Source: Selenomonas bovis DSM 23594 (lineage in GTDB: Bacteria > Bacillota > Negativicutes > Selenomonadales > Selenomonadaceae). Taken from it: a DNA stretch of 64,000 nt. Under the pieces are notes generated by a model, which worked only from the letters and a program-made list of their open reading frames with translations, was not told the DNA's origin and did not search any database. A program made the translations under genes and the position numbers. This document shows positions 24,519-26,485 of this stretch, in pieces. Position 1 is the first letter of the stretch. Every line of letters begins with the position of its first letter. The DNA is taken from positions 1-64,000 of the forward strand of contig NZ_KB908389.1 of the NCBI RefSeq assembly GCF_000381005.1, read 5' to 3'.

Positions 24519-24558
24519 GAGGTGCTTTCCTCTTCATGGAGGGAGGCACCTCATTTTG
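24519..24558 (+). terminator. Terminator of cheV
   Basis: GAGGTGC (24519-24525) pairs with GCACCTC (24546-24552), followed by ATTTTGTT. An inner CCTC/GAGG pairing lengthens the stem. Confidence 0.72.
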
Positions 24559-24720: not shown

Positions 24721-24756
24721 AAAAGGAAACGACCCTGCGCATCTGGCAGGGTCGTT
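24721..24756 (-). terminator. Intrinsic terminator of the large RNA candidate
   Basis: AACGACCCTGC (24728-24738) pairs with GCAGGGTCGTT (24746-24756), an 11-bp perfect stem. On the minus strand it is followed by TCCTTTTGC; on the plus strand no T-run follows, fixing the direction. Confidence 0.72.
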
Positions 24757-25409
24757 ACGTGGTGATTGACATTCAATCTGTACCTCTTTATTCATTTGTC
24801 TGCCGACAGCAACTCTCGAGTGAAGCTGCAGGCTTTATGCGATGTCTCGCGAAACAATTAACACATCGAACGACTGGAACAACAGCCGACATCGGCAGGA
24901 ACTAGGGAACGATGGGCTAACGCGGATGCCTCGGAACCTAGGAAACCGGAAGCTCCGATAGAAAGGAACACGGCGTGGGCATTCTCACGGTACTCTGACA
25001 GGCGTGCGATTTCATAACTGCCATATAGCTTCGAGTGCGCCCGGCGCTGAGAGGAGGCTCAGCATCGTGACGACTTACAATGCCTCGATGGCGTTTCGTC
25101 CTTCAACTGTGCACCCTATACGTCAGAGGGGAGCGAAAGAATGGTGAACGTAATCTGCAGAATCATCCACATCCTTTCCTAACATTGCTGTAAATCACAT
25201 CGGTATTTTCAGGAGCACGAGAGACTATATCGTGTAGATCAATCTCCTGCGGATGGGGGATACCGCTTTGCTCCGCCCCACCCACGCGATATAGGCTTTG
25301 ATGGGAAACCCATTCGTTACAAGGAAGAGAGCCTATTTCGGCGGGCACCTGCCGAGGACATCGCCCTCTAGGACTCCGCCCCCTCGGTGGTTTGCTCTTC
25401 TCTTCTTGC
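24721..25409 (-). ncRNA. Candidate large structured non-coding RNA (about 690 nt)
   Basis: This minus-strand unit has a promoter at 25416-25444 and an intrinsic terminator (stem 24728-24738 / 24746-24756, then TCCTTTT on the minus strand). Between them there is no credible protein frame on either strand but many nested pairings: AGGAG/CTCCT enclosing CACGA/TCGTG (25211-25248), GGATGGGGG with CCCCACCC (about 25251-25285), ATAGGCT/AGCCTAT enclosing ATGGG/CCCAT (about 25292-25335), GCTGAG/CTCAGC near 25050-25068, and a possible pseudoknot near the 5' end (CCGAGG with CCTCGG, GGGCGG with CCGCCC). RNase P, tmRNA, SRP RNA and group II intron motifs were looked for and not found. It may belong to, or resemble, the large ornate RNAs (OLE, ROOL, GOLLD, T-large); I cannot assign it. 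Confidence 0.6.
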
Positions 25410-25415
25410 ACCTTT

Positions 25416-25444
25416 AGTATAGCATGAAGGAAGATGAAATACAA
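25416..25444 (-). promoter_or_regulatory. Promoter of the large RNA candidate
   Basis: On the minus strand TTGTAT (25439-25444), a 17-bp spacer and TATACT (25416-25421). The predicted start is near 25409. No gene begins downstream on this strand, which is the main reason to expect a non-coding transcript. Confidence 0.65.
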
Positions 25445-25645: not shown

Positions 25646-26485
25646 ATGAAACGATTGATTGTGATCCGCGGCGGCGGCGAGATGGCGACGGGCATCGCGC
25701 TGACGCTGCATACAGCGGGATTTCGCGTGCTCATGCTCGAGCGGGCGCTGCCGTCGGCGACGCGGCGTGAGGTGACGTTTTCTGATGCCGTCTATGATGG
25801 GAAGAAGACCGTGGAGCGCGTGACCTGTACGTTCACGAAGAGCAAGAAGGAGGCGGAGAAGCTCCTGAAGAAGGAGGAGATCGTCATGATGGTCGATCCT
25901 GCGGCGACATCGGTGGCTGATTTCCACCCGCAGGTACTCGTCGATGCGATTCTCGCGCACAAGAACCTCGGTACATCGCGCGCGATGGCCAAGCATACGA
26001 TCGCGCTCGGACCGGGATTCTGCGCGGGGCGCGATGTGAACGCGGTCATCGAGACGATGCGCGGGCACAATATGGGACGCATCATCTACGAGGGATATTC
26101 CCTGCGCAGCGAGAAGGAAACGAGCGCGGAAATCGATGTGGATGAGACACGGGAACATATCATCTTCGCGCCAGCCGCAGGGCGCATCGAGTCGCTGCGC
26201 AGCATCTCGTTCCTCGTCAAGAAGGGAGAATCGATCGCCCATATCCATGCGGGTGGCGGCATCGTGGAGGTCAAGGCGCCTTTTGATGGCGTGCTGCGCG
26301 GCATCATCCACGATGGCTATGAGGTCTACGAGGGCATGAAGATTGCGGATATTCATCCGACGATGACGCAGGGCGAGTGTTTTACAATGTCCGACAAGGT
26401 GCGCTGCGTCGGCGGCTCGGTGCTCACGGCTGTCATGCACTGGGAGGCAGGGAACTTCAAGCGCCATCATCTGCTGCCGGTCTGA
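25646..26485 (+). CDS. yqeB: Selenium-dependent molybdenum hydroxylase accessory protein YqeB
   Basis: A 279-residue protein of the EF2563/YqeB family. The N-terminal Rossmann-like start LIVIRGGGEMATGIALTLHTAGF, the segment TIALGPGFCAGRDVNAVIET and the C-terminal barrel-sandwich stretch (APAAGRIESLRSI, HAGGGIVEVKAPFDGVLRG) are characteristic. Members co-occur with selenium-dependent molybdenum hydroxylases and are thought to help insert the labile selenium cofactor. The usual partners (xdh-like hydroxylase, yqeC, selD) are not in this window. A GGAGG site precedes the ATG. Confidence 0.85.
   Translation: MKRLIVIRGGGEMATGIALTLHTAGFRVLMLERALPSATRREVTFSDAVYDGKKTVERVTCTFTKSKKEAEKLLKKEEIVMMVDPAATSVADFHPQVLVDAILAHKNLGTSRAMAKHTIALGPGFCAGRDVNAVIETMRGHNMGRIIYEGYSLRSEKETSAEIDVDETREHIIFAPAAGRIESLRSISFLVKKGESIAHIHAGGGIVEVKAPFDGVLRGIIHDGYEVYEGMKIADIHPTMTQGECFTMSDKVRCVGGSVLTAVMHWEAGNFKRHHLLPV

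Follow-up and report, generated by a model that had tools for sequence, protein, structure and literature searches.

Between the stop of cheV (24495) and the start of yqeB (25646) in the window, by which is meant the whole 64,000-nt stretch of Selenomonas bovis DNA that was analyzed, lies a gap of 1150 bp for which the list of ORFs holds no credible long ORF. The cheV gene, which carries CheW and response-regulator domains, is convergent to the RNA described here. The original prediction had placed in this gap, as a 1.15-kb stretch without a protein gene, a large structured RNA on the minus strand, with a promoter of 17-bp spacing (TTGTAT / TATACT) at 25416-25444 and an intrinsic terminator at 24721-24756. 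The stretch is indeed free of a credible protein gene and both signals were recovered at these positions, the terminator as a minus-strand stem (24756-24728) of 11 pairs. The features of the locus, in window coordinates, are as follows.

25646..26485, plus strand: neighbor yqeB (TIGR03309), divergent from the RNA and the commonest neighbor among homologues
25416..25444, minus strand: promoter, with the -35 box TTGTAT at 25439-25444, a 17-nt spacer and the -10 box TATACT at 25416-25421
24721..25409, minus strand: the RNA, with an inferred start about 7 nt past the -10 box and extending to where the terminator U-run ends, supported by homology
25324..25405, minus strand: 5' domain, placed from coordinates and covariation on 21 homologues of other genera
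25399-25405/25324-25330, minus strand: helix P1 of the 5' domain
25389-25395, minus strand: 5' strand of helix P2 of the 5' domain
25382-25387/25352-25357, minus strand: helix P3 of the 5' domain
25363-25374, minus strand: hairpin P4 of the 5' domain
25331-25342, minus strand: hairpin P5 (GCCGAAATAGGC) of the 5' domain
25188..25323, minus strand: inserted repeat of about 136 nt in the linker after the 5' domain and before GGAAAGGATGTGG, borders approximate
25167..25179, minus strand: conserved GGAAAGGATGTGG segment
24995..25126, minus strand: middle domain, closed by CTGAC (25122-25126) with GTCAG (24995-24999), with covariation on 24 homologues of other genera
24789..24825, minus strand: 3' domain, with a CTTCACTCGAGAGTTG hairpin at 24810-24825 and conserved GACAAATGAATA at 24789-24800
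24783..24786, minus strand: Shine-Dalgarno-like GAGG, 10 nt ahead of the ATG, read from the sequence
24755..24772, minus strand: five-codon ORF MSITT (ATG TCA ATC ACC ACG TAA), the stop overlapping the foot of the terminator stem
24721..24756, minus strand: intrinsic terminator, from a terminator scan and coordinates

The ends of the RNA (24721..25409) are inferred from the promoter and terminator sequences, and its start is predicted to lie near AAAGAGGAGA. A consensus promoter scan of the interval returned no promoters because TTGTAT falls under the -35 threshold of the scan. Across the homologues described below, 58 of 60 loci have a sequence of the form TTGNNN-17-TANNNT upstream of the RNA, close to where the model match begins, versus 6 of 240 control windows inside the RNAs; the other two loci (L187 and L188) are ones whose examined stretch begins inside the RNA. 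In folding, the minus strand surpassed its shuffles with a z of -2.25, with 0 of 20 shuffles equally good, and the plus strand did so to a smaller extent, with a z of -1.22 and 3 of 20 equally good. Directly after cheV, a terminator-like hairpin of 15 pairs is present on the plus strand (window 24519-24552).

The roughly 690 nt between promoter and terminator had been read as one structured interval. A real structured RNA occupies it, and that part stands; however, about 136 nt of these (25188-25323) are an inserted repeat. The repeat is absent from the closest relative (G005), sits in a linker whose length varies in other genera, and has similar copies dispersed in a related genome (G008). 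This dispersed repeat, roughly 135 nt or more in length, was observed in the window at 25188-25323, at six loci of G008 (L029, L030, L031, L032, L033 and L034) and at one locus of G024 (L010). The copies of G008 and G024 terminate in GTGGATTGAAAC, an end that we take to resemble the 3' end of CRISPR repeats, and the window copy is degenerate at that point. A protein or a mobile element would have refuted the prediction, and neither explains the whole interval.

Distribution and gene context

The working set of homologues consists of 60 loci from 59 genomes and 17 genera, of which one locus (L085 in G025, genus g20) is doubtful. A terminator was identified in 59 loci and 16 genera, with G025 left outside this set because no terminator was found there. 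All working-set homologues fall within the window's own family (Selenomonas and relatives, by record title). It should be noted that the loci are related to each other and that counts across them are consequently not independent.

A DNA search of 60 genomes matched 11, including the window's own and six others of its genus; G008 and G024 were matched through the inserted repeat only. The aligned members of the genus have the promoter, conserved blocks and terminator in common. Covariance models extended the set: R1, built on the 5' domain, matched 50 of 380 genomes of the class, and R2, built on more diverse sequences, matched 59 of 380. These totals include the window's genome and matches that were rejected or not judged (G088 in R1; G320, G102 and G113 in R2), and all matches other than G320 are within the window's own family. 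Likewise, only six genomes of a 398-genome sample of the phylum were matched, all in that family and the window's genome among them. A 19-letter motif scan returned 41 stretches, 33 of which match R2 and carry the titles of Selenomonas, Veillonellaceae or Selenomonadaceae bacteria, and one Megamonas; the other eight (titles including Acidobacteria, Rhodanobacteraceae, Acetatifactor and Elusimicrobiota) fail to match R2 and look like chance matches. The core-motif pattern matched 34 of the 380 genomes; its reversed control matched none of the genomes listed. Inspection by eye led to the rejection of the core-motif match in G289 and the R2 match in G320, both coding-like sequence, and of the model match L086 (G088), a plain hairpin; G102 and G113 are weak R2 matches and were not judged.

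The models overlook divergent members of the class. Eighteen genomes were inspected at yqeB, 17 of them without an R2 match and 11 possessing the gene, and in three (G020, G209 and G029) the RNA was found beside yqeB; in G013 the RNA is present, but elsewhere than beside yqeB. R2 matches occur once per genome except in G200, which has two; the RNA is usually single copy. The two loci of G200 (L074 and L098) are similar, non-identical copies on different contigs, both with the ORF MFIND, in a genome with a contamination estimate of 4%. Measured from where the model match begins up to the terminator stem, the loci span 290 to 652 nt, and the window copy is the longest because of its insertion. 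A phage or plasmid origin was rejected: phage and plasmid records gave no match to the window RNA by blastn, and viral contigs gave none in one 19-letter motif scan.

Gene context was compared at 51 loci, a set that includes the rejected L086 and loci at contig ends. A tblastn search with YqeB placed a divergent yqeB within about 310 nt upstream in 36 of the 51, most of the window's genus included, and about 1.9 kb away in a 37th. The upstream yqeB is thus recurrent and only the downstream side of the RNA varies. Crude ORF calls place a convergent radical-SAM gene (c1) no further than the third ORF downstream in 26 of 51 loci, behind the same-strand gene c10 in four of these. The next gene is on the same strand in nine loci and of three kinds: c6 in four (rpsB by eye, in members of the window's genus), c8 in one (ilvB by eye) and c10 in four. 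The window and G005 have a convergent cheV downstream. In genus g1, the loci L022, L024, L025 and L026 have an rpsB-like gene on the same strand just downstream and retain the divergent yqeB upstream. A conserved same-strand downstream gene was not found among the 51 loci by these crude calls, so that the RNA lacks the downstream partner expected of a cis-regulatory leader or riboswitch. With a divergent yqeB nearby in 36 of 51 loci, a function tied to that gene cannot be ruled out for the RNA.

Covariation of the drawn helices

Two domains were tested for covariation on alignments in which the window takes no part, one of 21 sequences for the 5' domain (A5) and one of 24 for the middle domain (A6). 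A5 derives from an alignment of 32 rows (A3) and omits L021, L023, L025, L027 and L028, in which MAFFT had displaced helix P1, as well as L094, L083, L087, L093, L078 and L089. A6 holds 24 of the 45 middle-domain stretches that were extracted; a further 15 loci failed extraction and are not included.

In the 5' domain, 89.4% of the cells of helices P1-P5 are paired and double changes occur in 12 of 27 pairs. Covariation is 0.274 compared to 0.142 for shuffled alignments, a value that none of 500 shuffles reached, and the best version with the helices slid scored 0.118. Weaker measures were reached by some shuffles (13 of 500 for pairs with double changes and 11 of 500 for further pair types). 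The middle domain behaves similarly, with 86.9% paired cells, double changes in 15 of 26 pairs and a covariation of 0.331 versus 0.186 shuffled, again reached by 0 of 500 shuffles, with 0.111 for the best slid version; here 2 of 500 shuffles reached the count of pairs with double changes and 98 of 500 that of further pair types. All five pairs of the closing helix CTGAC/GTCAG are double-changed in at least one sequence, and, with regard to the 5' pseudoknot thought possible in the original prediction, the covarying 5' helices of the 21 relatives are nested. For the 3' domain, candidate helices were only listed, without a covariation test.

These values must be read with the way in which the helices were obtained. 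In a stricter all-pairs covariation test with a phylogenetic null, for which 46 sequences were aligned by MAFFT without refinement, no pair reached significance. The named helices were drawn by hand after viewing the same alignments on which they were tested, and were tested after the negative all-pairs result; the shuffles, moreover, do not remove relatedness among the sequences. With that limit, lack of covariation among homologues, an outcome that would have told against the original prediction, was not observed, as the drawn helices covary in both the 5' and the middle domain. One locus (L175 in G029) has lost the whole 5' domain, such that the promoter leads directly to the middle domain, and has kept the core motif, a six-codon ORF and the terminator.

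A five-codon reading frame beside the terminator

In most homologues a Shine-Dalgarno-like AGG or GAGG and an ATG lie near the terminator, together with a stop codon at the foot of its stem. An ATG ORF of exactly five codons with its stop abutting the terminator stem is present in 49 of 59 loci, versus 0.97 expected from dinucleotide shuffles, and in 12 of 16 genera. When the anchor was moved 20 to 240 nt upstream as a control, the count fell to 9, 1, 0, 0, 0, 0, 0, 1 and 1 loci. The 49 frames encode 33 distinct pentapeptides with no fixed residue beyond the start, and end in TAA (40), TAG (6) or TGA (3). The position of the terminator was set by eye for 22 of the 59 loci, because the automatic fold had picked another or an extended hairpin.

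Three more loci (in G004, G210 and G029) have a six-codon ORF, and the extra codon of G004 is consistent with a 3-nt insertion, by which the frame is kept. The shorter RNAs of G020 and G209 have the five-codon ORF, and the six-codon ORF of G029 was retained after the loss of the 5' domain. No five- or six-codon ATG ORF was found in 7 of 59 loci (L093 of g12, L075 of g18, three loci of g19, L184 and L187), which implies that the ORF is not indispensable; read by eye, the ORF of L184 has two codons and that of L187 has seven with a TTG start. Within the window's genus, a small hairpin (window 24764-24778) holds, by eye, the ATG of the five-codon ORF in its loop; it reads GATTG-AATGT-CAATC in the window and GACTA-TATGT-TAGTC in relatives, such that the stem changes on both sides. 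Both this ORF and the inserted repeat had been missed in the first reading of the sequence.

With its length fixed and its sequence free, the ORF suggests that what is selected is translation as such, or else the placement of a ribosome next to the terminator. This remains an inference, as there are no translation data.

Explanations for the RNA and comparison with known systems

That the RNA class is real is very likely. The RNA has its own promoter and terminator and covarying drawn helices, as expected of a large structured trans-acting RNA (the negative all-pairs test notwithstanding). As to independence of neighboring genes, the downstream genes vary, but a divergent yqeB recurs close by. 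The RNA is probably a stand-alone, trans-acting large structured RNA of a class absent from Rfam. The original prediction had left the choice between a known and a new class; as far as tested, the class is new, without a match in Rfam 15. With cmscan and all 4227 families of that release, neither the window nor 16 homologous loci gave a match at gathering thresholds, and permissive thresholds gave nothing credible for the window interval (chance-level matches only) or for five homologous loci. Of the housekeeping RNAs predicted not to fit, tmRNA and RNase P RNA are accounted for elsewhere in the genome: the window holds no tmRNA or tRNA-like domain of one by Rfam or ARAGORN, with a tmRNA above cut-off at G000:C31, and the RNA does not match the RNase P RNA model (RF00010), for which there is a match above cut-off at G000:C2. 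Nor was there a match to OLE RNA (RF01071) in the window or tested homologues, or to the Rfam models of ROOL and GOLLD. OLE likewise went unmatched in 90 related genomes, in a search without a positive control.

The explanation favored here, which we hold to be somewhat better than an even prospect, is that ribosomes engage the five-codon ORF and that the RNA functions through this. What is observed is homology, compensatory changes in the drawn helices, the sequences of promoter and terminator, and an ORF length that is conserved; expression, translation and function are inferred, without transcript, footprint or peptide data. A large RNA with two domains of covarying helices would be transcribed from a dedicated promoter up to an intrinsic terminator, and its 3' end would form a translation unit of fixed length, composed of a Shine-Dalgarno-like sequence, an ATG, four free codons and a stop at the terminator foot. 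A ribosome may then initiate on this ORF and finish after five codons, in which case the act of engagement, rather than the peptide, would be conserved. The structured domains would act beside the engaged ribosome, for example to sense the state of translation, to reserve ribosomes or to deliver a bound protein. The role of the ribosome is deduced from the ORF only. The more specific proposal, an RNA machine that acts on the ribosome via a sequence-indifferent five-codon ORF and uses initiation and termination at its own 3' end as a mode of ribosome binding, is put forward tentatively, and we know of no counterpart for binding through an RNA's own 3' minigene among large noncoding RNAs.

The main rival is a scaffold of the OLE type, in which the domains bind proteins or catalyze a reaction and the ORF either has no role of its own or merely serves to protect or tune the 3' end. 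Size, conserved structure, the usual single copy per genome and a dedicated promoter would all suit such a scaffold, as would the 7 of 59 loci without the ORF, and it is a serious possibility though an unlikely one, given that the length of the ORF is kept in 12 of 16 genera despite sequence change, that the ORF persists where the 5' domain is lost, and that there is no Rfam match to OLE. A leader or attenuator, in which the position of a ribosome on the five codons controls the terminator and hence a downstream gene, would suit the contact between stop codon and terminator stem, an arrangement typical of leader-peptide attenuation, and nine loci do have a same-strand gene next by crude ORF calls. 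The same-strand target is not conserved, however, and the convergent c1, one of the first three ORFs downstream in 26 of 51 loci, and the convergent cheV of the window leave this explanation improbable.

It is decidedly improbable that the RNA is a dual-function regulator that base-pairs with mRNAs and produces a bioactive pentapeptide: RNAs of similar size with a coding part are known (S. aureus RNAIII), but 33 pentapeptides without a fixed residue past the start argue against a sequence-specific peptide. Scarcely credible is an origin by chance or decay, in which the interval would be intergenic DNA or what is left of a mobile element and would encode no functional RNA. The dispersed repeat in the window copy and the absence of a significant pair in the all-pairs test could be cited for it; against it, promoter, structure, terminator and ORF are all conserved across genera. 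Ribosome engagement at the five-codon ORF is retained as the preferred explanation, with the reservations given above, and the recurrence of yqeB leaves its standing unchanged because it does not depend on gene context.

Few large structured bacterial RNAs are known and most are without a settled function, and this one is absent from Rfam 15 yet spread through much of a family of rumen and gut bacteria. Its ORF at the terminator, conserved in length though not in sequence, offers a direct experimental handle: changing the start codon alone would test for a ribosome-linked function, in a class of RNAs where function is usually out of reach.

Motifs previously described from Negativicutes, Selenomonadales or Veillonella (gltD, ldh2, ilvD, potE and SLH) lie upstream of genes, and no RNA resembling that of the window was present in the available portions of the papers that report them, supplements with many more candidates excluded (PMC8632094, PMC11109978, PMC6429828, PMC8040213). 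A prior description of the window RNA was not found within the partially available literature searched.

As background for the comparison, the partner of OLE RNA is the membrane protein OapA, and ROOL and GOLLD are often phage-linked. In the parts of the sources available, OLE RNA (RF01071) is described as large (~600 nt), highly structured, found in Bacillota and of unsettled biochemical function (PMC9723947, PMC12054373), and ROOL and GOLLD as large ornate bacterial RNAs (PMC12286853). The RNA of the window shares with OLE its size, high structure and occurrence in Bacillota, and differs in that neither it nor its homologues match the OLE model. It is a large ornate bacterial RNA like ROOL and GOLLD, and differs from them in having no Rfam match and, as far as blastn of the window RNA against phage and plasmid records and one 19-letter motif in viral contigs show, no phage link.

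Similarity to tmRNA lies in a built-in short ORF within a structured RNA; tmRNA is, however, a separate gene in this genome, and the ORF here is at the 3' end with its own ATG and Shine-Dalgarno-like sequence. S. aureus RNAIII, a dual-function structured RNA of about 500 nt, also has a coding part, whereas the ORF here, located at the terminator, has a fixed length of five codons and a variable sequence, in an RNA without an Rfam match. Minigenes and E-peptide ORFs, about five codons with a Shine-Dalgarno sequence, engage ribosomes, and the ORF described here resembles them in both length and Shine-Dalgarno sequence. To our knowledge, no minigene is the conserved end of a large structured RNA, and the literature searched, in titles and abstract openings, held no case of a minigene ending one. 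The RNA matches no known family, and a minigene with fixed length and free sequence at the end of a large structured RNA has no precedent known to us, although large ornate RNAs are familiar as a broad kind. Its anatomy is that of the large ornate RNAs as a kind, but by test it belongs to none of the ones in Rfam.
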